This document shows, piece by piece, positions 1-49,679 of a stretch of DNA of 64,000 bases. The notes under the pieces were generated by a model. It worked only from the letters and a program-made list of their open reading frames with translations. It was not told the origin of the DNA and ran no database searches. The DNA comes from Tenacibaculum pacificus (GTDB lineage Bacteria; Bacteroidota; Bacteroidia; Flavobacteriales; Flavobacteriaceae). Position 1 is the first letter of the stretch, and every line of letters begins with the position of its first letter. Made by a program: the position numbers and the translations under genes. Where the stretch lies: assembly GCF_027941775.1 (NCBI RefSeq), contig NZ_CP115917.1, positions 2,647,001-2,711,000 on the forward strand. Reading direction: 5' to 3'.

Positions 1-231
1 TTAAGTTTTTCAGTTCCTGCTTTATTTTCAGGTACAATTAATGCCTTATATTTAGAATCGTATGTAGAAGTTACACCTGGTGCTAATTTTACAGGAACAG
101 ATAGTTTAATGCCTCCTACCGTTTTAAAAACCACCAATACTTTAGCCGTTAAAGCAGGTGATTTAATACACATCGATTTTAGTTTTAAATACGGTGATTC
201 TCTTGATAAAATTAGCTGTATGCTTTCTTAA
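1..231 (+). CDS. C-terminal fragment, possible class I SAM-dependent methyltransferase
   Basis: This is an open frame of 76 codons that enters from the left edge of the window and stops at TAA 229-231; the start lies outside. The visible part has motifs such as GTINALYLESYVEVTPG, GTDSLMPPTVL and AGDLIHIDFSFKYGD. These look like the beta-barrel C-terminus that follows the Rossmann domain in some protein-arginine-methyltransferase-like enzymes, but the catalytic part is not visible, so the assignment is a weak inference. It is convergent with the dioxygenase gene ending at 253, only 21 bp away, with no clear terminator hairpin between them. Confidence 0.45.
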   Translation, partial: LSFSVPALFSGTINALYLESYVEVTPGANFTGTDSLMPPTVLKTTNTLAVKAGDLIHIDFSFKYGDSLDKISCMLS

Positions 232-252: not shown

Positions 253-1173
253 TTAAGATACTATTTCAATATCAAAACCAATAATATCTCTAACGCCTTT
301 TTCAGCTAAATTTATCGGCTGAATAGGCGTTACATAATGCCATAAATCAGTTCCGAATTCTTTTTCTTCGCCAGTATCTGCTTGAAAAGCAAATTCTCCA
401 GCTTCTAAAATCGTATTAAAAACAAGTTCTTTTTTTTCTGAAATAGCTTCAAAAATTTGAGTTTCTCCACCTAAAATATTCGTTCTATTGATAACCAAAG
501 CAGAAAGAATATATTTTGCACCATCTTCATGAACACCTTCTGGAGAGTTTTCTCCTTTTATCTGAACATCAGAAATTGTGCGCATAAAATGACTCGTAAC
601 TTTTATCTTTTGAGTAGTTGGATGAATTTCACTTATCAAAAGAAATACTTGTTTTAAAAGGCTTTTAAATAATTCATTTTCTACGGATGCTTTTGATGCT
701 TGTTTAAAAACACGTTTCCAAACTCTAAAATCGGATACATCTTGTTTAAATGATTTTGCTTCAATACGTTTTACACCTAAATTATCTCTTTGTTTTTCTG
801 ATGATTTCTCAACTGTAAAAGAAGAAATATTTCGTTGTCTTGTAATTTTAGAAAGGATTAAAAATTCTTTCTTTTGATTTTCTGATAATTTATCAATCCA
901 AGGATTTAAAACATTTTTTGATAAATTTCCTTCAAAATAATCTTGATGTATTTTTTCTAAAGAAACTATATCCTCTATAAAAACCGACTTTAAAAATGCA
1001 ATTTGATTATTTTTAACCAAATACACATCATCCATTAAATCAGTATCAAAAAAAAGTTTAAAAGATGCTATAAAATCGGCTTTATTAATGGCTAAATCAG
1101 TTAACGAACCAATACGAATTGGCGCTTTTATAGTACGTTTTAATTGTTCGGATATCTCTTTTTCAGTAATCAT
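253..1173 (-). CDS. 2-oxoglutarate/Fe(II) dioxygenase (PF10014-like, amino-acid hydroxylase family)
   Basis: The 306-residue protein has the signatures of the 2OG-Fe dioxygenase family that includes L-isoleucine 4-hydroxylase and BsmA. The iron triad is H215-x-D217 (in SPEGVHEDGAKY) plus H279 (in DLWHYVTPI), and R295 in KGVRDIIGFDI is the likely 2-oxoglutarate ligand. NRTNILGGETQIF (about 230-242) is the typical core strand and turn. Residues 1-190 are less conserved and probably contribute substrate binding. There is no signal peptide, so it is cytoplasmic. It is the last gene of the eight-gene leftward operon and starts 2 bp after the AAA+ gene stop, so it is almost certainly co-translated with it. 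Known relatives hydroxylate free L-amino acids; the substrate here is unknown. A role acting on whatever the co-transcribed importer delivers is inference. Confidence 0.8.
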   Translation of the reverse strand: MITEKEISEQLKRTIKAPIRIGSLTDLAINKADFIASFKLFFDTDLMDDVYLVKNNQIAFLKSVFIEDIVSLEKIHQDYFEGNLSKNVLNPWIDKLSENQKKEFLILSKITRQRNISSFTVEKSSEKQRDNLGVKRIEAKSFKQDVSDFRVWKRVFKQASKASVENELFKSLLKQVFLLISEIHPTTQKIKVTSHFMRTISDVQIKGENSPEGVHEDGAKYILSALVINRTNILGGETQIFEAISEKKELVFNTILEAGEFAFQADTGEEKEFGTDLWHYVTPIQPINLAEKGVRDIIGFDIEIVS

Positions 1174-1175
1174 TT

Positions 1176-3080
1176 TTATAATACTTCTTCGGCTTCTTGA
1201 AACATCAAATATTTTTCCACTGTTTTATTTACTGGCGGTATATCTTGTTCAACAATGGTGATTAATAATTCTTTTGTTATGGGAGCAATTGCAATAATTC
1301 TGTTTGCTTGATATTCAATTATTTTTTCAAAAAGATTTCTTGCTACACGAGCATTTCCAAAATTTTTATCCTTTTTTTCGTAGAGTTTTTCAAAGATAAA
1401 TAAGAGTTTTTCTTTAGCATCAGTAGCTAAAACAAAATCGTTCTTTTTACAAAAAAGTTCAAAAATAGCGACCAATTCTGTCGGTTTATAATGATCAAAA
1501 GTAAAATACCTATTAAAACGAGATTGTAACCCTGGGTTTGAATTGATAAAACTTTTCATTTCATCTGGATATCCAGCTACAATAACCACCAATTCTTTTC
1601 TGTGGTCTTCCATTTTTTTCAGTAATACTTCAATAGCTTCATTTCCAAAATCTTTTTTAGCATCTTTTGCCAAGGCATATGCTTCATCAATAAATAAAAC
1701 ACCATTTAACGAAGCGGTTACAATTTCTTCAACTTTTAAAGCCGTTTGTCCAACATAACCCGCAACCATTCCACTTCTGTCAGTTTCTATTAAATGTCCT
1801 TTTTCTAAGTATCCTAAATGTTTGTATATTTTAGAAATTAAACGTGCTACCGTAGTTTTCCCTGTACCTGGAGGTCCCATAAAAACAGAATGCAACGAAT
1901 TATTTACACTTTTTAATCCTTCGGATTCTCGTAATTTTTGAACCTTTAAAAAATTCGATAATTCAGAGATTGCACCTTTAATATTGTCCAATCCTACCAA
2001 TTGATTCAATTCCTCTAAAACTTCTTCTAAAGTTTCATTTTCATCAATTTCAACCTCTTTTACACCTTGTAATTTTTCCTTCGGATGCTGTAACTTATCG
2101 TTTATATTTTTGAGTATTTCTTGTTCTTTTTCAGATACTGTTCCATCTGCTTTTACGATTAAAGAAGCAATTCGATATAAAAAAGCAGCTGAATTTGAAA
2201 AATGTGGATTCTTTAATCGCTTTAAAATTAGTGGTAATAAAAACTCATTTTTATAGGTATCTCCTAAATCAAAAAGAGTGGCTTTTTTTATAATTTCAAT
2301 ATTTTTATCAAAACTATCCGAAGCAACAAATTCATTTATTCGGGCGATACTCAAACTACTGATAATATCCTTTCCTTGTAATTTTTCAAACAAAAAAGCG
2401 AGTAAAAACTTAATTCTTAGCGTTGCTACTTTATTTTCTTCACTTGTTAAATTACAAACTTTATTAAATACTTTAATAATATCTTGTAAAATAATGTGTT
2501 CGGCGGTAAATTTTACAGCATCATCGGTTTTAGTTACAATATCATTAATTACTGTTGAAAACCGTTTATTATTATTTAAATCGTCTGCTAAATTTTGAAT
2601 TTTATCACCTTCATTTTTTAAAATTTCTAAAAAAGAAGCATCAATATCAAAATTAGTAGCACTACTTTCTTTTTGATTTACAAAGCGTTTAAATTTATCA
2701 GTAAAAGAAGCCAAATTTTTCTTTTCTTCATTTACTGATAAACCTAAATCACTCACCAAATTTCTTATTAATGATAAATGTTCTTTATCAAAAGAAAGGA
2801 ATTCCTCATTTTTTAAAGCCGTAATTTCTAATAAATACGTATTGCTTTTTGTGTGAATATGTTTTGAGGTAATTACAAAATCGAAATTATTGCTATCTTT
2901 CTTTGACGAATAAAGCAATAATAAATCTTCATCTTTAATTTTCAGTTTTGAAAAATCCGCAGAAATAGCTATTATTTTTAAAGGATTTACCAATTTCCCT
3001 TTAAAAAAATAAGGCGTATCTTTTGAAGATAACTTCTTAAAAAACAGGTCGATTATTTTATACGATTTTGTACTATTCAT
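1176..3080 (-). CDS. AAA+ ATPase of the SpoVK/CbbX type with N-terminal TerB-like region
   Basis: A 634-residue protein. Residues 360-620 form a CbbX/SpoVK-type AAA+ module: Walker A GPPGTGKT (402-409), pore-loop region GYVGQT, Walker B VLFIDEA (461-467) and arginine residues in QSRFNRYF (519-526). Residues about 298-335 (LYRIASLIVKADGTVSEKEQ) resemble the acidic helix-turn of TerB domains found in tellurite/stress-response gene sets. Residues 1-290 are not recognised. There are no membrane segments. It lies between the ABC ATPase gene (13 bp upstream) and the dioxygenase gene (2 bp downstream). AAA+ proteins of this type remodel or disassemble partner proteins; candidate partners are the coiled-coil proteins of the same operon (inference). 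No RuBisCO genes are nearby, so a CbbX activase role is not supported. Confidence 0.85.
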   Translation of the reverse strand: MNSTKSYKIIDLFFKKLSSKDTPYFFKGKLVNPLKIIAISADFSKLKIKDEDLLLLYSSKKDSNNFDFVITSKHIHTKSNTYLLEITALKNEEFLSFDKEHLSLIRNLVSDLGLSVNEEKKNLASFTDKFKRFVNQKESSATNFDIDASFLEILKNEGDKIQNLADDLNNNKRFSTVINDIVTKTDDAVKFTAEHIILQDIIKVFNKVCNLTSEENKVATLRIKFLLAFLFEKLQGKDIISSLSIARINEFVASDSFDKNIEIIKKATLFDLGDTYKNEFLLPLILKRLKNPHFSNSAAFLYRIASLIVKADGTVSEKEQEILKNINDKLQHPKEKLQGVKEVEIDENETLEEVLEELNQLVGLDNIKGAISELSNFLKVQKLRESEGLKSVNNSLHSVFMGPPGTGKTTVARLISKIYKHLGYLEKGHLIETDRSGMVAGYVGQTALKVEEIVTASLNGVLFIDEAYALAKDAKKDFGNEAIEVLLKKMEDHRKELVVIVAGYPDEMKSFINSNPGLQSRFNRYFTFDHYKPTELVAIFELFCKKNDFVLATDAKEKLLFIFEKLYEKKDKNFGNARVARNLFEKIIEYQANRIIAIAPITKELLITIVEQDIPPVNKTVEKYLMFQEAEEVL

Positions 3081-3093
3081 AGACTATTGATTA

Positions 3094-3903
3094 TTAATTT
3101 TCTGAATCTATTGCCATCATTGCATCTTCTACTTGATGTACTAATTCATCAAAATGAGGCAATCTTTTAGTTTCTCTATTTCGTTGAAAAGGCAAATCGA
3201 CATTAATATGTTTTACAAAATTTGATGGTGCGTGTTTCATGATATAAATATCATCGGCTAAATACACCGCTTCCTGAATGTCATGTGTTACAAACAAAAT
3301 AGTTGGGCTAAATTTCTCCCAAATATTGATTAATAAATCTTGCATTTGCAACCTTGTTTTAACATCTAAAGCTCCAAAAGGCTCATCCATCAATAAAATT
3401 TCTGGATTCGACATTAAACTTCTCGCAATCGCAATTCTTTGTAACTGTCCTCCTGATAAATTAGGATATTGTGCATACTTTTTTTGATGTCCATCTAAAC
3501 CTACTAATTGAATCATTTCCATAGCACGTTCATCACGTTCTTTTTTAGAAATCCCTTCAAATTTCAATGCCAAACCAACATTATCTAAAACGGTCATCCA
3601 AGGTAAAGAAGAGTATTGCTGAAAAACCATACTCACCCTATTTTCTTTGCTAACAGGTTGCCCTTTTACCAAAACACTTCCTGATGTTGGTTGTTGTAAA
3701 CCTGCAATATATCTTAATAAAGTAGATTTTCCACAGCCCGACATTCCTAAAATAACGGCAAATTGCCCTTGCATTGGTTTATCTTCAATTAGTAAATCTA
3801 AATTTTGAATAATTTTAGTTTGTCCGTTATTATACGACTGCTCAATATTGCGCAATTCGATAAGATTAGACGCCTGTGGGTTATCTGTAAATAGTAAGCT
3901 CAT
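3094..3903 (-). CDS. NitT/TauT-type ABC transporter ATP-binding protein
   Basis: A 269-residue ABC ATPase with all motifs intact: Walker A GMSGCGKSTLL, Q-loop region MVFQQYSSLPWMTV, signature LSGGQLQRIAIARSL, Walker B ILLMDEPFGALD and the switch histidine in FVTHDIQEAV. The sequence around the Q loop and the EPFGALD box is typical of the nitrate/sulfonate/taurine subfamily (TauB/SsuB/NrtD). It starts 2 bp after the permease stop codon, so the two form one translational unit. It energises the inner-membrane permease encoded immediately upstream. The substrate cannot be read from the sequence. Confidence 0.93.
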   Translation of the reverse strand: MSLLFTDNPQASNLIELRNIEQSYNNGQTKIIQNLDLLIEDKPMQGQFAVILGMSGCGKSTLLRYIAGLQQPTSGSVLVKGQPVSKENRVSMVFQQYSSLPWMTVLDNVGLALKFEGISKKERDERAMEMIQLVGLDGHQKKYAQYPNLSGGQLQRIAIARSLMSNPEILLMDEPFGALDVKTRLQMQDLLINIWEKFSPTILFVTHDIQEAVYLADDIYIMKHAPSNFVKHINVDLPFQRNRETKRLPHFDELVHQVEDAMMAIDSEN

Positions 3904-3905
3904 GG

Positions 3906-4868
3906 TTAACGTTTGTTTGTATTAATGTGTTTGTAAGGAAACAATAGTTTATCTATAATTACAAATAATCGATCTTGTACCACGCCAATAATAACAATGA
4001 TTATTAATATTGCAAACGCCTTATCTATTCTACTTTGTCTTTTTGCTGTCCAAATTAATTCACCAATTCCACCGCCTTTATTTAGCATTTCTACGATGGT
4101 AATATACGTCCAAGAAATTGCGGTTAAAACTCGAATATCATCAATTAATTTTGAAAACACATACGGCATATATACCGATTTTATGGTTTGCCATGGTGTT
4201 GCTCCTAAAGTAAAAACAGTGTTTAAATATACTTTTCGAACTTCATCAATACGTTGAACCACCACAGGAATTAAATAAACGATAATACCAAAAGCTAAAA
4301 AACTAACTTTCATTTGACTTCCTAAACCGAGCCACATAATAAAAATTCCTGTTACAGCTGTTAGCGGAATAAAACGATATGAATCAATTATTTTGCTAAA
4401 CAAACCTCTAAAAAGTGGAATTAATCCTAAAAGAAAACCAACAGGAATTGCAATAATAATGGCTAATAAATATCCTAAAAGATTTAATTTAATTGATAAA
4501 AAAGTATTTCCAATAACATCATCATCTTTATTTAATTCAGGAAAAGCTTTGATTACTTTTATTGGCGAAGGTAAAATAGGATATACTTTATTTTTAACTA
4601 AACCGAATCCTTTTAAATCATCAATACTTTTTGTTTCTAAAAGTGTGTAATTAGCAACTAAAAGTGAATCGCTTTCATAGTATTTTCTATTTTCTTTGGA
4701 TAAAGAAGTAGGTGAGATCGTGTCGTTTTGGGTGATGATAGTTTTAGATAAAACTTCAGCTAATAAAAACCAAAACAAAATAAGAATTACGCTTCCCAAA
4801 ATGGTTAGCGTAATTCTTTCTTTTGATGCGAGTTCTCCTCGTAACTCAAATAATTTTTTATAGTTCAT
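3906..4868 (-). CDS. NitT/TauT-type ABC transporter permease with N-terminal periplasmic extension
   Basis: A 320-residue inner-membrane protein. A first membrane helix (about 20-42) is followed by a hydrophilic stretch of some 75 residues, then a TauC/SsuC-type permease core with helices from about 120 to 310. The cytoplasmic coupling loop with the EAA-like motif is seen in LNTVFTLGATPWQTIKSVYMP. The segment PSPIKVIKAFPEL before the core is typical of the family. The extra-cytoplasmic insert between helix 1 and the core is longer than in ordinary TauC. The start overlaps the stop of the binding-protein gene as TAATG, indicating translational coupling. Confidence 0.92.
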   Translation of the reverse strand: MNYKKLFELRGELASKERITLTILGSVILILFWFLLAEVLSKTIITQNDTISPTSLSKENRKYYESDSLLVANYTLLETKSIDDLKGFGLVKNKVYPILPSPIKVIKAFPELNKDDDVIGNTFLSIKLNLLGYLLAIIIAIPVGFLLGLIPLFRGLFSKIIDSYRFIPLTAVTGIFIMWLGLGSQMKVSFLAFGIIVYLIPVVVQRIDEVRKVYLNTVFTLGATPWQTIKSVYMPYVFSKLIDDIRVLTAISWTYITIVEMLNKGGGIGELIWTAKRQSRIDKAFAILIIIVIIGVVQDRLFVIIDKLLFPYKHINTNKR

Positions 4869-6409
4869 TAGTCTACAACTAATTCAAAATCGGTTCTTCT
4901 ATTTTTTGCTTGACAATCTTTATTCTGATTTCTCTCACAACCAGCAATTGGTTTATCAGGACCATTTCCTAAAATGATAAACCTATTTTTAGGCATATTA
5001 TGTTGATCGATTAAATAATTAGCAACCGACTGAGCTCTTCGTCTAGAAAGTAAAACATTAGAACTTCTTTTTCCAACATTATCAGTATTTCCTTCAATAC
5101 GGATGCGTGTATTTGCAAAAGCTTTTGCTATTGGCGTAAATTGCACGTCTATTAATTGCTTTGCATTATCGCTTAAAATAAACTGACCAGTTCTAAAACT
5201 GATACTTACTTTTTTTGATGATAAAGATGCTTTTTTAGCTAATTTATCATTGGCTTTAGAAAATTGTTTTTCTTTTTCTGAAACATGATTTGCTCCTGTT
5301 AAAGAGTTGGTTTTTGTTACTAAATCTTTTGTTGAAAGTAATCTCCAACTTTTTGCACCTGAAGTATTGTATCCTAAATTTTGATACTTTACTTTCATTT
5401 TATTGTACAAGTTTTCACCAGTTACACCGTTGTAATTATTATTTAATCCGAAGAAATTTTGATTATCTCCATGTGTAGCTAAACGTACATTATTAATCGC
5501 ATCATAACAAAAACCTTCTGGTTGCGATAAACCTTCAGCTAAAATTTTAGCGGCTTTCTTTTTGTTAGCATCCGAATTATTAAGTTCAGAAGCTCCAATC
5601 ATCCAACCTTCGTATAATTCTCTTAATTGCTCTTTATTATTTTCGATAAAATCTTTTTTAGCGACAAAAACATCAGCAATAATATGTGTTGCATTTTTAG
5701 TACTTTCTAAAACCCTAGCTCCTGCTACTTTTTGAACACAATCAGCATCATCTGGACTCCAAACAACGGCAGCATCAACAGTTCCACTTTTAAAAGCATC
5801 GGCAGCATCAATAGCACTTGGCACTTCAATTATTTTAACATCTTTTACACTGATATCTCCTGCTTCTAATAACCAAATTAAAAACGAGTGCGATGGTGTC
5901 ATTGGTGCAACGGCAATTTTCTTACCTCTTAAATCGCTTACTTTATTAATTCCTCTACGTGCAACAATTGCATCTCCTCCACGACTCCAATCTGCCTGAA
6001 AAACAACTTGCGGTTGATATTGCGATAATCCTGCAACTTCGGTAGGAAAAGCATCAATAGTTGCCCACATTAAATCGATATCGCCATTTTTAAACGCATC
6101 ACGAGAAGCATCAAAATCATCAATTACTTTAAAATTTACTTTAAATCCGTAATCTTTATAAAATCGAGAATTTGTATTTGCTCTAAAACCTTCATTAAAA
6201 TATTGTCCACCAGCATAACCTCCCCAAGTAACAACTCCGATATTTAACACATCTTGATACCCTTCTTTGGTTTCTGAGCTCGCAGTTACTTCATTTATTT
6301 TGTCTTTAACCTTCGGATCTCTTAGTTTATTTAATAAGAAATAAACACCTCCAATGATTACTGCAACAATTAATATTTTGGATAATGGAGTTAATTTTTT
6401 TCCTGCCAT
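4868..6409 (-). CDS. Inner-membrane-anchored periplasmic substrate-binding protein fused to an OmpA-type peptidoglycan-binding domain
   Basis: A 513-residue protein. Residues 10-27 form a single uncleaved-looking membrane anchor with no lipobox cysteine. Residues about 55-360 are an ABSSUB/NMT1-like bilobed binding protein (NIGVVTWGGYAGGQYFNEG; DLMWATIDAFP; RGINKVSDLRGKKIAV; AAVVWSPDDA). Residues about 400-513 are an OmpA C-terminal domain with the peptidoglycan-contact residues in EGNTDNVG and NRRTDFELVVD. The fusion would hold the receptor at the cell wall while it feeds the TauC-type permease. Similar proteins are named 'phosphate ABC transporter substrate-binding/OmpA family protein' in databases, but the specificity is not known. 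Its stop codon overlaps the permease start. Confidence 0.88.
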   Translation of the reverse strand: MAGKKLTPLSKILIVAVIIGGVYFLLNKLRDPKVKDKINEVTASSETKEGYQDVLNIGVVTWGGYAGGQYFNEGFRANTNSRFYKDYGFKVNFKVIDDFDASRDAFKNGDIDLMWATIDAFPTEVAGLSQYQPQVVFQADWSRGGDAIVARRGINKVSDLRGKKIAVAPMTPSHSFLIWLLEAGDISVKDVKIIEVPSAIDAADAFKSGTVDAAVVWSPDDADCVQKVAGARVLESTKNATHIIADVFVAKKDFIENNKEQLRELYEGWMIGASELNNSDANKKKAAKILAEGLSQPEGFCYDAINNVRLATHGDNQNFFGLNNNYNGVTGENLYNKMKVKYQNLGYNTSGAKSWRLLSTKDLVTKTNSLTGANHVSEKEKQFSKANDKLAKKASLSSKKVSISFRTGQFILSDNAKQLIDVQFTPIAKAFANTRIRIEGNTDNVGKRSSNVLLSRRRAQSVANYLIDQHNMPKNRFIILGNGPDKPIAGCERNQNKDCQAKNRRTDFELVVD

Positions 6410-6439
6410 AATTTATTTTTTTATTGGTTGATTTGTTAT

Positions 6440-7444
6440 TTAAAAGTTGAATAAATCAGTATACTGATTATTATGCTTTTTGTTTTTCTTTAATGTTGGT
6501 GCATCTAAATCTACACTATGACTGTCGTTTACTAATAAATCTTTTTGATTTCCAAGGATTAAAGAAACTCCTTCTTTTTCCCACTTATCTAATAATTCTA
6601 AACCTTCTTCTTCAAAAATTCCATTTTGTAAATCGATAGAATCCATAAAACCGTTTGACATTTCCATAAAACGCTCCATTTCACCAATTTTCATACTAAC
6701 ATCATCAGCAATTGCCTCTAAAGCTCTATCAAACATTTCTTTTTTATCGTTGTTTCCTGTGATGATATTCATTGCCGATTTCATAGCAGAATGACTCGCA
6801 CGTATTGCCTTACGTTCTTGTTCTTTTACCATTACTTGGTCTTCAATATCTTCGACTAAAATTTCAGAATTTTCATACATTTTTGTTAATACTCTGTATA
6901 AAATTTCCATTTTTCTGTACAACTCATCTAGCTTTAAATTAGATTCTCTTAATCTTCCTGCTTTTCGAGATTTCAGAATCATAATTCCTTTTTTATCTTT
7001 CTCTTTGGCAGCACTTGCAAGCTTTAAGTTATTATTGATATTCTTTTTATTTTCATTCATTATTTGCTGTAGCCTTCTCATTTGACCTTTTAAAACAGCA
7101 ATTTGTTTGTTCATTTTCTTTAAGTTATCTTTTAAATCATCAATATAACTTTTTAAAATTCCTATCGGATCAATTAAAATAAACAAACCTGTAATCCATC
7201 GCATAAACGATTTATACATGTAAAAAATCAAGTTACGCATTTTAGGATCTAAAATCATATAAATTAAAGCTCCTAAACCTGCTAAAAGTAATCCTAAATG
7301 TAAGGTGTTTTCTACAATATTAATAAGATAAGGCAATGCTTTGTATAAAAAATACATACTCCCTCCTGCTAATAAAGCTGTAAAAAACATTCCTGTTTTT
7401 CCTTCTGGTTTTTCCCAAAAAGATTTGGGTGTAAAGTTTTCCAT
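6440..7444 (-). CDS. Membrane-anchored coiled-coil protein of unknown function
   Basis: A 334-residue protein with two or three N-terminal membrane helices (about 18-40, 44-64 and a shorter one near 84-98), then a long helical cytoplasmic region. Residues 100-140 and 165-270 are rich in charged heptads (LKDNLKKMNKQIAVLKGQM; KLDELYRKMEILYRVL) and recall PspA-like or XpaC/TelA-like helical stress proteins without a clear match. The start codon overlaps the stop of the preceding gene (TAATG at 7442-7446). The gene precedes the binding-protein gene by 30 bp. I do not recognise a family. Position and topology suggest a scaffold for the transporter or a client of the AAA+ ATPase. Confidence 0.8.
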   Translation of the reverse strand: MENFTPKSFWEKPEGKTGMFFTALLAGGSMYFLYKALPYLINIVENTLHLGLLLAGLGALIYMILDPKMRNLIFYMYKSFMRWITGLFILIDPIGILKSYIDDLKDNLKKMNKQIAVLKGQMRRLQQIMNENKKNINNNLKLASAAKEKDKKGIMILKSRKAGRLRESNLKLDELYRKMEILYRVLTKMYENSEILVEDIEDQVMVKEQERKAIRASHSAMKSAMNIITGNNDKKEMFDRALEAIADDVSMKIGEMERFMEMSNGFMDSIDLQNGIFEEEGLELLDKWEKEGVSLILGNQKDLLVNDSHSVDLDAPTLKKNKKHNNQYTDLFNF

Positions 7445-8151
7445 TATTTTATATATTGTTTTATTTTTTGTGCATCTTGTTCTAATTGAGTTCTTAAATG
7501 TAAGTACGACATTTTAAAATCATTTTGAGTTTTAGTAATTTTATGGCTACTATCAGCTATCAATTTTTTTAACTCTTCAATTTGATTTTGATGCTTTGTA
7601 ATTTCGTTTGTAAGTTGTTTTATTTTTTCTGATTTTTCATTAACAACCGCTTCAAACTGTGTAATTTCTTTTTCTTTATTCCCTATTTTAGCTACTAATT
7701 GCCCTTCAAAAGCTTTTGTAAAAGTGCTATTTTCAGTATCTAATACCCCAATATAATGGTTTATAGTTTCTAACAAGCTATCTAAAGTTGCTCCCATTGT
7801 AGAAGCTGCTGCATAAGTTGAACGATATTTTGTAGCCTCATCCATCGGAATTTTTTCTAAAGCTTTTAAGGCTTTTTTAAATTCTAGATAATCAAATCCT
7901 TCTAAGTTATTGTTTTCAATTGCTATTAATAATTTTTCTACAATAGCATTATCAACACTACCAGTAGCATTGAAATTTATAGGAGCTGATTTATTTATAG
8001 TACTTACTTTTTCCGCTGATTTTTTTGGTGTTTCTTTTGAAACTACCTCCTTTTTCTTCTCTTCTTTACTTTCATCTTCAGTAAAAAATAACGATTTTAA
8101 ATTTTTTAACATAGTTACTCTAGTTTTAACAAATTTAAAAAAATTAACCAA
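7444..8151 (-). CDS. Soluble coiled-coil protein of unknown function
   Basis: A 235-residue protein without signal peptide or membrane helix. Residues 1-55 are lysine/glutamate/serine-rich and probably flexible. Residues 60-145 form a compact helical region containing IENNNLEGFDYLEFKKAL. Residues 145-230 form a continuous coiled coil (KEKEITQFEAVVNEKSEKIK; TKHQNQIEELKKLI). It is translationally coupled to the next gene through a one-base stop/start overlap. The coiled coil could pair with the helical domain of the membrane protein encoded next (inference from adjacency). No database family is recognised. Confidence 0.8.
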   Translation of the reverse strand: MVNFFKFVKTRVTMLKNLKSLFFTEDESKEEKKKEVVSKETPKKSAEKVSTINKSAPINFNATGSVDNAIVEKLLIAIENNNLEGFDYLEFKKALKALEKIPMDEATKYRSTYAAASTMGATLDSLLETINHYIGVLDTENSTFTKAFEGQLVAKIGNKEKEITQFEAVVNEKSEKIKQLTNEITKHQNQIEELKKLIADSSHKITKTQNDFKMSYLHLRTQLEQDAQKIKQYIK

Positions 8152-8175
8152 CTAAAAAGCCTTTATGTTCCTTGA

Positions 8176-8679
8176 TTACTTTACCAACTTATTCCATCCT
8201 AATTTTAAAACGACTAATAAAACTAAAAATATGGCTATAAGCTGAGTAAAACTACCAATAAAGAAAACTCCTATAATTGCTTTTTGAATAAAATACGTAA
8301 TTAAAAAGGTGATAAATAAGATAATAAACAACCCTGATAACTTATCAAAACCAGGAATTTCTTTTAAAGGAAGTGTTTTTTTGATAATTAAGAACAATAA
8401 TATCATGGCTATTATCGGTAAATAATAGGTAACTAATTGAAGTTGCATTAAATTTTTACGCAAGAAAAAAAAGTTATAAACAACTAAAATAATACTTAAA
8501 AGACCTGGTATTGCTACAGCGTATATTAAAACGCTATACACATATAAAATTGGCGATTTAGGACGAATTATATTTGAAAATAAAAGTCCTATTAATATTA
8601 TTACAAACAACAATATATAGTAATTAAGAATATTACCCGAATTGGTGGTAAGTATGTTTATAAGATCGTATACTGTCAT
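8176..8679 (-). CDS. Small polytopic membrane protein, first gene of the operon
   Basis: A 167-residue, very hydrophobic protein with about five or six predicted membrane helices (roughly 20-37, 45-75, 80-100, 112-132 and 137-162) and short polar loops. No catalytic or transport motif is visible. It is the promoter-proximal gene of the eight-gene leftward operon, 24 bp before the coiled-coil gene, and has a -7 box 27 bp upstream of its ATG. Function unknown. Confidence 0.75.
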   Translation of the reverse strand: MTVYDLINILTTNSGNILNYYILLFVIILIGLLFSNIIRPKSPILYVYSVLIYAVAIPGLLSIILVVYNFFFLRKNLMQLQLVTYYLPIIAMILLFLIIKKTLPLKEIPGFDKLSGLFIILFITFLITYFIQKAIIGVFFIGSFTQLIAIFLVLLVVLKLGWNKLVK

Positions 8680-8706: not shown

Positions 8707-8714
8707 CAAATTTA
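8707..8714 (-). promoter_or_regulatory. -7 element of the eight-gene operon
   Basis: On the minus strand this reads TAAATTTG, a match to the Bacteroidetes TAnnTTTG, 27 bp before the ATG at 8679. No convincing TTG element is seen at -33. Confidence 0.5.
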
Positions 8715-8868: not shown

Positions 8869-11328
8869 ATGGAATTTTTATACTTTATAATACCTTTACT
8901 CTGTTTTTATTTTATCAATAAAAATATCAACAAAAAATTTGAAGAACTCAATAAAACAATTACAGATTTACAAAAAGAAATTTTTTCAAAAAATACGGTT
9001 GTAGCTAATAAAAATGTAGCATCCGAAGAAGAAAAAACTGTAATTCCTAAAGTAACTAAAATAGTAAATCCAATAATTCCTACTCCTAAAAAAGAGGAAA
9101 TTATAATACCTCCTATTACTGATTCTTTAAAAGTCAATACTATTTTAGAGGATAAAAAAACAATAGAAAAACCAATTAAAGAGAAAATAAAATCAATTCC
9201 TAAAAAATCATTTTTTGAAAGATTTAAAGAAAAAAATCCTGATTTAGAAAAGTTCATCGGTGAAAATCTGATTAATAAACTTGGGATCTTAATTTTAGTA
9301 TTAGGAATTAGTTTTTTCGTGAAATATGCCATCGATAAAGATTGGATAAACGAACCTGCAAGAGTTGGAATTGGTGTTTTATGTGGTTCATTAATTATGG
9401 CAATTGCACATAAATTAAAGAAAAATTACACCTCTTTTAGTTCTGTTTTAGTTGCGGGAGCTATTAGTATTTTTTACTTTACTATTTATATTGCTTTTCA
9501 TGAATATCAGTTATTTAGTCAAACCGTAGCTTTTGCTATTATGACGGTAATAACCATTTTTAGTACGCTTGTTGCGGTTTCTTATAACCGACAAGAACTA
9601 GCTGTTTTATCATTAATTGGTGGGTTTTCAGCACCATTTATGGTAAGTACGGGCGAAGGTAATTATGTAGTTTTATTTACTTACATTGCTATTTTAAACA
9701 TCGGAATATTAGGGATTTCTTATTTTAAGAAATGGCGAATTTCAACAATATTATCTTTTATATTTACAATAATATTATTCGGAAGTTGGTGTGGTTTAAA
9801 AATAGGTTACAAAACATTTTCACACACAGGAGCTTTAACTTTTGCAACCTTATTTTATTTTATATTTAGCATTACAATTGTTTTAAATAATCTTAGAAAT
9901 AAAGGTGTGTTTTCTACGATAGAATATTTTATTTTAGTAGCAAATACCTTTGTTTTTTTCGGTTTAGGAATGTTAATTTTAAATGATTTAGAATCAAATT
10001 TAACAGGATTATTTACGTTATTATTGGCACTTTATAACATTGCTTACGCTACTGTTTTATATAAAAAATTCGGATTAGATAAAAATGCCATTTACTTATT
10101 AATCGGACTTGCTTTAACTTTTGTTACGTTAACAATTCCAATTCAGTTTGAAGGTAATATTATTACACTTTTCTGGGCTTTGGAAGCTGTTTTATTATTT
10201 TGGCTATCTCAAAAATCAAAAATAGATACCTTTAAAATTGGTGCTTTTATAATACAAGTTTTAACACTTATCAGTTTATTTTTAGATTGGGAAAAATACA
10301 GCTTTACAAAAGATTTAACTATCATTTTAAATCCGTTATTTATTGCTGGTTTAGTGGTTAGTTGTTCGCTATTTTTAACGTATTGGTTATTAAAAAAAGA
10401 GAAAGAATTCGTTATAAAACACTTTTCTATAAATATTAATTCTTATCGAAATATACTTTTGATTATCACTATTTTAATAACCTATTTTACAGGTATTTTA
10501 GAAGTAAATTATCAAGCTTATCAATTTTTAAAGAACACTTTTTCTGCGTTATCTTTTCCTCTAACATATCATTTTATATTTATTACGACCATATTATATA
10601 TCGCATCAATATTAAAAAATAAAAATATTTCAAAAGGAATTTTAGTTGTAGGTATTATTTCAACAGTACTTTATATTGTTGATTTTTACCGATTACCAAA
10701 AAGCGAATTAATTGAAAACTTCTTAGAAAACACCAATACAAATTATGCTTTTTACTTTCATTATATCATTTTAAGTTGTTTAATTTATTTTGGATATCAA
10801 CTATATAAGACATCCGATTTATTATTTAAGATAAAACCAAAACAACGTAAATGGTTGCCTTGGATATTTACTTTTGCCATTGTATATATTTTAAGTAATG
10901 AAATAATGATACATGGTTTACATCTTTCAAATTCTGTTGATACAGTAGCTTTATCTGAAAAATTCTCTGAATCAGAAAATGATTTTTACGCTAAGAGTAA
11001 TTTTGTACACAGCCAAATATCAGCGACAAAAACACAAATTATTAAAATAGGATATCCAATACTTTGGGGAGTTTTTTCTTTTATCTTTTTAATTATTGGG
11101 ATAAAAAAACAATGGAAAAACTTACGAGTAATTGCACTTTCTTTACTCGGAATTACCATTTTGAAACTTTTTATTTACGATATTAAAAACGTTTCGGAAA
11201 CAGGAAAAATTATTGCTTTTATATTATTAGGAGTTTTAATTTTGATAATTTCTTTTGTGTATCAAAAATTAAAAAAATTGGTTGTTGATGAAACTACCGA
11301 AAATAAAAATACAGATGATGAAATATAG
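8869..11328 (+). CDS. DUF2339 domain-containing polytopic membrane protein
   Basis: An 819-residue integral membrane protein. A first helix (1-17) is followed by a charged, lysine-rich cytoplasmic linker (20-125), then about twenty closely packed hydrophobic helices from residue 137 to 805. ENLINKLGILILVLGISFFV followed by a YAIDKDWINEPARVGIG loop is the hallmark opening of the DUF2339 family. The function of the family is not established. The very common pairing with DUF3999, seen here with overlapping frames, suggests a joint envelope role. The gene is divergent from the ABC/AAA+ operon. Confidence 0.88.
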   Translation: MEFLYFIIPLLCFYFINKNINKKFEELNKTITDLQKEIFSKNTVVANKNVASEEEKTVIPKVTKIVNPIIPTPKKEEIIIPPITDSLKVNTILEDKKTIEKPIKEKIKSIPKKSFFERFKEKNPDLEKFIGENLINKLGILILVLGISFFVKYAIDKDWINEPARVGIGVLCGSLIMAIAHKLKKNYTSFSSVLVAGAISIFYFTIYIAFHEYQLFSQTVAFAIMTVITIFSTLVAVSYNRQELAVLSLIGGFSAPFMVSTGEGNYVVLFTYIAILNIGILGISYFKKWRISTILSFIFTIILFGSWCGLKIGYKTFSHTGALTFATLFYFIFSITIVLNNLRNKGVFSTIEYFILVANTFVFFGLGMLILNDLESNLTGLFTLLLALYNIAYATVLYKKFGLDKNAIYLLIGLALTFVTLTIPIQFEGNIITLFWALEAVLLFWLSQKSKIDTFKIGAFIIQVLTLISLFLDWEKYSFTKDLTIILNPLFIAGLVVSCSLFLTYWLLKKEKEFVIKHFSININSYRNILLIITILITYFTGILEVNYQAYQFLKNTFSALSFPLTYHFIFITTILYIASILKNKNISKGILVVGIISTVLYIVDFYRLPKSELIENFLENTNTNYAFYFHYIILSCLIYFGYQLYKTSDLLFKIKPKQRKWLPWIFTFAIVYILSNEIMIHGLHLSNSVDTVALSEKFSESENDFYAKSNFVHSQISATKTQIIKIGYPILWGVFSFIFLIIGIKKQWKNLRVIALSLLGITILKLFIYDIKNVSETGKIIAFILLGVLILIISFVYQKLKKLVVDETTENKNTDDEI

Positions 11329-14267: not shown

Positions 14268-14352
14268 GAAGCAATTTCCCGCTTTCCGCACTCGCTTTTT
14301 TTTGAAAAAAAATCAAAAAAAGAGCTCAAACAAATGCTTCAATCGGGGCTAG
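14268..14352 (+). repeat. Interspersed hairpin repeat, copy 1
   Basis: An 85-bp element that starts GAAGCAATTTCCCGC and ends AATCGGGGCTAG. Two further copies are at 19810-19890 and 49506-49597, all on the plus strand. Outer arms GAAGCAATT/AAATGCTTC pair with one mismatch. The inner arms are a T-run and A-run closed by GC(T)/(A)GAGC. It lies just downstream of the Bax-inhibitor-1 gene. Confidence 0.8.
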
Positions 14353-14393
14353 AAATTTTTACACGATTTTATATCTAAAAAATATATAATAAC

Positions 14394-19809: not shown

Positions 19810-19890
19810 GAAGCAATTTCCCGCTTTCCGCACTCGCTCTTTTTTTGAAGAAAAAAAAGGAGCTCAAACAATTGCTTCAATCGGGGCTAG
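19810..19890 (+). repeat. Interspersed hairpin repeat, copy 2
   Basis: An 81-bp copy with perfect outer arms GAAGCAATT/AATTGCTTC and inner arms GCTCTTTTTTT / AAAAAAAAGGAGC. Conservation with copy 3 extends about 9 bp further right (GCATTTGTA). It lies after the rseP terminator and before the convergent acyltransferase gene's terminator. Confidence 0.8.
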
Positions 19891-19952
19891 GCATTTGTAT
19901 TAAATAATTTTTAATAGTACTAAAAAAGGAATAATAGTATCTTTTTAAACAA

Positions 19953-26476: not shown

Positions 26477-26477
26477 G

Positions 26478-26549
26478 TTGGCCTACAAGGACTCGAACCT
26501 TGAATGTCGGTACCAAAAACCGGTGTGTTACCAATTACACCATAGGCCA
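26478..26549 (-). tRNA. tRNA-Gln(TTG), copy 1
   Basis: A 72-nt cloverleaf: acceptor TGGCCTA/TAGGCCA, D arm GTGT/ACAC, anticodon loop TTTTGGT with anticodon TTG, T arm CAAGG TTCGAGT CCTTG. CCA is not encoded. The base of the anticodon stem is a C-A mismatch. Confidence 0.95.
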
Positions 26550-26631
26550 ATTAATAAGTTTTGTAAATATAAAAACAATTTTTATATTTTAGTAATTTTA
26601 TAAACCTACTTAAACATTTAAAAATACTAAG

Positions 26632-26703
26632 TTGGCCTACAAGGACTCGAACCTTGAATGTCGGTACCAAAAACCGGTGTGTTACCAATTACACCATAGG
26701 CCA
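26632..26703 (-). tRNA. tRNA-Gln(TTG), copy 2
   Basis: Identical to the copy at 26478-26549 over the full 72 nt. The 82-bp spacer between them is unrelated AT-rich sequence. This copy is promoter-proximal. Confidence 0.95.
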
Positions 26704-49505: not shown

Positions 49506-49597
49506 GAAGCAATTTCCCGCTTTCCGCACTCGCTTTTTTTATTTTTTCGAAAAGAAAAATAAAAAAGAGCTCAAACAATTGCTTCAATCGGGGCTAG
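49506..49597 (+). repeat. Interspersed hairpin repeat, copy 3
   Basis: A 92-bp copy with perfect outer arms GAAGCAATT/AATTGCTTC and a longer inner arm, TTTTTTTATTTTT pairing with AAAAATAAAAAA. The inner arms differ in sequence between copies but remain complementary. Identity with copy 2 continues into GCATTTGTA. It lies between serS and the TPR gene. Confidence 0.8.
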
Positions 49598-49679
49598 GCA
49601 TTTGTACTATTTTGAAAGTTTTATACAAAAAAATAGTAAATTTTCAAACACAAATCATAATTACAACAATTTTGTTCTG

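Follow-up and report, generated by a model that had tools for sequence, protein, structure and literature searches.

A stretch of 64,000 nucleotides from Tenacibaculum pacificus (contig NZ_CP115917.1, positions 2,647,001–2,711,000; hereafter the window, in whose numbering positions are given unless a locus is named) contains a conserved set of genes in which a scaffold-like membrane protein (g3) and two companions (g1, g2) are combined with a NitT/TauT-type ABC importer (g4–g6), an AAA+ ATPase (g7), a dioxygenase (g8) and a methyltransferase resembling protein arginine methyltransferases (PRMTs; c9). A grouping of scaffold, AAA+ and ABC genes of this kind has been published (PMC11237479), and relative to the main text of that paper it is the two enzymes, g8 and c9, that are new.

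There are several lines of evidence that these genes belong together. First, they keep company in related loci. Loci were matched with g3 and the best 80 of 264 were kept; many contigs are short, and three of the 80 gave no g3 open reading frame (ORF) in clustering. Among these best 80 the families number 77 (g3), 75 (g2), 64 (g4), 48 (g5), 46 (g6), 31 (g7), 25 (g1), 24 (g8) and 16 (c9), the nearest named loci being those of T. finnmarkense, T. dicentrarchi and T. piscium, with g3 98–99% identical. Flanks of 2.5 kb or more upstream and 9 kb or more downstream are available for 52 loci, 23 of them titled Tenacibaculum, Aquimarina or Aureisphaera (the flavobacterial loci) and 29 from other genera. 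All 23 flavobacterial loci contain g1 through g7 and 22 contain g8, and the arrangement is therefore not due to chance; c9 is present in 12 and a helicase gene, c13, in 11. Second, g3, g7, g8 and c9 are each found in exactly the same five of 39 genomes (G000, G002, G003, G008 and G018), although the matched stretch of g7 crosses one stop in G002 and G003, where the ORFs are 646 aa and 631 aa (vs 634) long, respectively. This holds even where the genes are apart: G002 has g1–g6, then g7–c13–g8, then c9 at three places some 14–57 kb from one another, and in G003 about 4.2 kb of other genes separate g7–g8 from g6 and c9 lies about 72 kb from g1. An earlier note on this DNA, made from the sequence alone, had treated the genes as one module, dioxygenase included, and had named mere local adjacency of the AAA+ and dioxygenase genes as a finding that would speak against it; in the shared five genomes the genes behave as one inherited unit, which agrees with the former and disposes of the latter. 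Third, of 199 family genomes the same three contain g8, c9 and full-length g4; another 43 have a g4 match, in which the alignment is confined to the OmpA end or extends little further. With genomes taken as independent, the odds of a second gene matching the identical genome set are 1 in 575,757 and 1 in about 1.3 million, figures that overstate the case because the genomes are not independent and the carriers represent few lineages. Fourth, the identities of g7, g8 and c9 correlate with one another at 0.93–0.98 over 13 loci (pairs of which are not independent), compared with 0.82 for g3 and 0.81–0.89 for g4, and these three may thus be the tightest sub-unit. Finally, dN/dS (the ratio of nonsynonymous to synonymous substitution rates) is 0.02–0.39 for all nine genes wherever a value was obtained, the most distant comparison being saturated at synonymous sites and yielding no value for g1. 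The least constrained gene in all four comparisons is g8, and the most constrained on average is g3, followed by c9 and g6. The joint presence or absence of g3, g7, g8 and c9 in close relatives suggests that they probably act as one working unit.

The published counterpart covers part of this set. According to PMC11237479 (mSystems 2024), PspA and transmembrane (TM)-bearing Snf7 homologs and AAA+ proteins may be encoded in operons alongside a solute- and peptidoglycan-binding (PBP-OmpA) protein and the permease and ATPase of an ABC system; the association is presented there as gene-neighbourhood inference, with OGG56892.1 as an operon example, and ATP-dependent membrane remodelling tied to solute transport is suggested. 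By gene order and spacing, the window contains the gene content of this class (AAA+, ABC ATPase, permease, PBP-OmpA and a TM-bearing helical protein that may be a PspA/Snf7 homolog), the two being likened by description. They differ in that the main text of PMC11237479 mentions no dioxygenase, oxygenase or methyltransferase. The earlier note, which gave no defined function for the combination, missed that the scaffold/ABC/AAA+ grouping is already in print. Among the open-licence papers listed, no title or abstract beginning reported the enzyme pair with this core, although no search named precisely that combination.

The first three genes make up the scaffold-like part. There is no Pfam match to g1 at E≤0.1 and no NCBIfam match at E≤0.01, and g2 matches mostly generic coiled-coil families (among the best 25 of 75 Pfam families). 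The membrane-anchored g3 is a probable scaffold that resembles PspA/Vipp1 (IM30) of the ESCRT-III superfamily: a putative helical hairpin lies in register with PspA/Vipp1 over model residues 92–225, 19 of 56 family members match PF04012 (PspA/IM30) at E≤0.01, and many close relatives carry the NCBI label PspA/IM30 family protein. It departs from PspA/Vipp1 in its Pfam score (see below) and in having two N-terminal helices, including a hydrophobic segment at 43–65 seen by hydropathy, ahead of the hairpin. Comparison of the g2 profile with E. coli PspA alone (hhalign) is uninformative (3.6% probability; 0.1% with PspA reversed). A suspected kinship of g2 or g3 to TelA/XpaC was put aside, as neither appears among the 10 families that g3 members match or the best 25 of 75 for g2, no direct comparison having been made.

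The importer genes are more readily classified. Both NMT1_2 and OmpA score above the Pfam cutoff in g4, the TD and NxxLSxxRA motifs are present in 64 of 64 family members, and a lipobox pattern is present in none of the 64. The substrate-binding protein (SBP) part of g4 has TauA as its nearest solved relative (E 9e-12), but differs from TauABC/SsuABC importers in being membrane-anchored and fused to OmpA. Pfam and NCBIfam profiles type g5 and g6, with Walker A in all 46 g6 members, and adjoining genes for an SBP, permease and ATPase of NitT/TauT type give the gene content of such an importer. Two candidate ligands were considered and put aside. Guanidino compounds were suggested by c9 together with a weak match of g4 to TIGR03427 (80.8 vs a cutoff of 333.9 bits), a family presumably tied to guanidine. 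Thiamine was suggested by the NMT1-like SBP and by the TenA-like gene of Saprospiraceae-type loci, but that gene has a higher score as Haem_oxygenas_2/CADD, and neither seven loci nor the window yielded a thiamine pyrophosphate riboswitch. In five loci, all outside the flavobacterial group (L034, L039, L040, L070 and L078; four of the 29 well-flanked loci of other genera have the gene), c25, encoding a CADD/BesC-like haem-oxygenase-type iron enzyme (PF14518), lies between g5 and g6, an arrangement compatible with oxidation of the imported compound as a recurrent theme.

The AAA+ protein g7 is of the CbbX/SpoVK type, with AAA and AAA_lid_6 above the Pfam cutoff, intact Walker motifs (GPPGTGKT in 30 of 31 members) and matches to CbbX by profile (E 1e-73) and by Foldseek (E 2e-14). 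It shares the two domains and the fold with CbbX, SpoVK and EccA but falls below the equivalog cutoffs (spore_V_K, 284.7 vs 422.95 bits; CbbX, 233 vs 459.25 bits) and has an additional N-terminal half of about 345 residues, the first 120 of which match no Pfam family in any of three members tried. The TerB label that this protein had been given is not sustained, as PF05099 is matched below threshold (E 0.079; 13.7 vs 24.4 bits), reaches E≤0.01 in one of 26 members and gives 14.9 bits with residues 121–345 alone; the link to tellurite or phage-type stress, which rested on TerB, goes with it.

Both enzymes have recognizable catalytic features. The 2-oxoglutarate (2OG)-Fe dioxygenase g8 matches PF10014 (E 3.6e-28), its residues H215, D217, H279 and R295 are invariant across 16 sequences, and HEDGA is present in 23 of 24 members. 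It thus resembles the PF10014 amino-acid dioxygenases (HilB and BsmA-domain proteins), but scores just 17.2 bits against HilB and has some 110 residues preceding its PF10014 domain. By profile and by its double-E loop, c9 appears PRMT-like. It matches PF05185 (34.5 bits, above the cutoff of 22.9) and CARM1 (E 4e-12; profile E 1e-15), and the glutamates E135 and E144 of the loop (E-x8-E) are invariant in 31 sequences and align to Glu of CARM1, the pattern being present in 16 of 16 loci. The double-E loop, the THW loop and a C-terminal beta barrel are hallmarks of PRMTs; in c9 the likeness to CARM1 and PRMT1 lies in the catalytic domain, alignments to PDB entries stop at about residue 166–186, and no THW loop was seen by eye. 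Several c9 relatives are named by NCBI as rRNA adenine methyltransferase family.

The explanation that we favor, tentatively and just short of calling it probable, is that these genes form a single envelope unit of a PspA-like scaffold, a peptidoglycan-tethered importer, an AAA+ remodeller and enzymes acting on the solute. Together with the coiled-coil g2 and the small membrane protein g1, g3 would form a scaffold on the inner membrane, coupled to the TauABC-type importer; g4, with a single helix in that membrane and an OmpA domain that attaches it to peptidoglycan, would link ligand binding to the wall. The ATPase g7 would use ATP to remodel or disassemble the scaffold, and the imported (or a stress-related) small molecule would be modified by g8 and c9 as dedicated enzymes. 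CbbX remodels Rubisco and Vps4 remodels ESCRT-III; by analogy, remodelling of the scaffold by g7 is plausible because g3 resembles PspA/Vipp1 and g7 resembles CbbX. What the sequences show is the gene content and order, the motifs, their conservation and the joint occurrence of g3, g7, g8 and c9; from these we infer the assembly of the scaffold and the action of g7 on it, as well as the direction of transport, the ligand and the substrate of the enzymes. Since the chemistry of the enzymes is recognizable they offer a testable handle, and their substrate would reveal what is transported or protected. The set also bears on the question of a dedicated Vps4-like motor for PspA-type scaffolds of bacteria, and on the role of a PRMT-like enzyme in a bacterium.

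Several observations weigh against a single envelope unit. First, g3 scores 18.5 bits against PF04012, below the curated cutoff of 33.9; scores for BAR and axonemal proteins equal or exceed those for PspA/Vipp1; and comparison of the g3 profile with E. coli PspA alone (hhalign) lends no support (0.4% probability, with 0.2% for reversed PspA). Second, the five carriers are the genome of the window, two with 98–99% g3 identity and two with 87%, and being close relatives amount to far fewer than five independent events. Third, in a phylum sample of 296 genomes there are matches to g3 in 19, ten strongly (E<1e-19; six at ≥57% identity including the window's own, four at 25–37%) and nine weakly (E 3.5e-5 to 5.3e-4), but g8 is found in one and c9 in seven, six of these weak. 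Fourth, the 29 loci of other genera contain g2 in 26, g4 in 21, g5 in 14 and g6 in 11, but g1 in none, g7 in three, g8 in none and c9 in one; even in the flavobacterial loci only those 12 of 23 have c9 inside the fetched flank. The other-genus counts indicate a wider core of g2–g4, often with g5–g6, to which g1, g7, g8 and c9 are additions, and they speak against taking the eight-gene operon of the earlier note as fixed.

An alternative that is unlikely, though far from negligible, is that the ABC part serves as a sensor or mechanical link, the SBP-OmpA protein reporting ligand or membrane–wall distance through permease and ATPase to the scaffold, with g8 and c9 making the sensed compound. The membrane anchoring of the SBP, OmpA motifs intact in all 64 members and the coupling to a PspA-like protein are as this would predict, but the permease and ATPase resemble ordinary importer parts and the ATPase motifs are intact.

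It is distinctly unlikely that the targets of g8 and c9 are the module's own proteins and not a small molecule, arginine-type methylation and hydroxylation then controlling scaffold assembly. The PRMT-like character of c9, with its invariant loop, its low dN/dS (0.03–0.07 in four comparisons) and the co-variation of its identities with those of g7 (0.94) would fit; against this, the core is found elsewhere with neither enzyme nearby, and HilB, a characterized PF10014 enzyme, acts in an L-isoleucine dihydroxylation cascade, i.e. on a free amino acid (PMC3684760). In its fullest form, a long shot, an ESCRT-III-like scaffold that has an AAA+ motor to itself would be regulated through its components, with c9 adding arginine-type methylation and g8 hydroxylation, and would be physically tied to the wall by the ABC-linked OmpA protein; if true, such a self-modified scaffold would parallel in bacteria the membrane remodelling that eukaryotes control by modification.

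That the enzymes are hitchhikers on a mobile or island-like segment, sharing inheritance but not function with the core, seems quite improbable. The patchy distribution within the genus (5 of 24) could be so explained, but co-occurrence persists with the pieces 4–72 kb apart, and in other genera too. In two Saprospiraceae loci c9 follows g6 and g8 is nearby on the opposite strand (39% identical in L063; cut by the contig end in L041), and the absence of g3 and g4 matches from 72,556 plasmid records rules against plasmid carriage. Very improbable is an anti-phage or stress-defence module: c13, with matches mostly to parts of defence proteins, is present in 11 of 23 well-flanked flavobacterial loci and there are PADLOC matches for g6 (mad3, 1.4e-26), c9 (mad2, 1.9e-12) and g7 (IetA, 3e-10), but none of these matches spans its whole profile or protein and all look like shared ATPase or methyltransferase domains, no complete known system is found, and c13 is missing from the window's own set.

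Table 1. Genes of the set and their positions in the window.
Gene	Position	Strand	Description
g1	8176..8679	-	Small (167 aa) membrane protein with five hydrophobic segments (ORF, hydropathy)
g2	7444..8112	-	Soluble coiled-coil protein; likely ATG start at 8112
g3	6440..7444	-	Membrane-anchored PspA/Vipp1-like helical protein, probable scaffold
g4	4868..6409	-	SBP-OmpA fusion; one N-terminal membrane anchor, without lipobox
g5	3906..4868	-	ABC permease, BPD_transp_1, TauC/SaoP-like
g6	3094..3903	-	ABC ATPase, TauB/SaoA-like
g7	1176..3080	-	CbbX/SpoVK-type AAA+ ATPase; N-terminal half unclassified
g8	253..1173	-	PF10014 2OG-Fe dioxygenase
c9	1..231	+	3′ end of PRMT-like methyltransferase gene, convergent with g8

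The ORF coordinates confirm eight tightly packed leftward genes between 253 and 8679, as the earlier note described, with junctions from g1 to g8 of 24, −1, 30, −1, 2, 13 and 2 bp, two of them TAATG overlaps. Two details of that description change. The ORF of g2 opens at TTG 8151, but family members share a start at the ATG of codon 14 (about 8112), which is likelier and widens the g1–g2 gap to about 63 bp; and the set extends beyond 253, c9 (294 aa) having been missed. Only the last 231 bases of c9 are inside the window (whole gene, L087:14347–15231), and 21 bp separate its end from that of g8. Scans for promoters (56 found vs 48.8 expected) and terminators (3 vs 3.0) are near background. Upstream of g1, TAAATTTG at 8714–8707 is a candidate Bacteroidota −7 box, fitting TAnnTTTG. 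Divergent from g1 is a gene for a DUF2339 membrane protein (8869–11328), whose ortholog adjoins c9 instead in G003; it was rejected as a member of the set, being found in six of the 39 genomes and covering just four of the five carriers.

The gene c13, encoding a superfamily 1 (SF1) helicase of about 905 aa, follows g7 in 11 loci (L009, L014, L016–L018, L020–L023, L025 and L029) and in G002 lies between g7 and g8 (L164:7675–10422); its best PADLOC matches and most of its NCBIfam matches, the latter far below cutoffs, are to portions of proteins that act against phages (Mko, ProA, Hhe). Between g6 and g7 of G003 (L166:8383–12056) are three long, similar genes with, by eye, the look of tail-fibre or adhesin genes. 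A cobalamin riboswitch is present about 5 kb upstream of the core locus in L070 (Candidatus Parvibacillus; 4285–4497, - strand). Elsewhere in the window there are three Flavo-1 RNA matches above the gathering score (14271–14354, 19813–19892 and 49509–49599, - strand) and two adjacent tRNA-Gln (TTG) genes (26477–26549 and 26631–26703).

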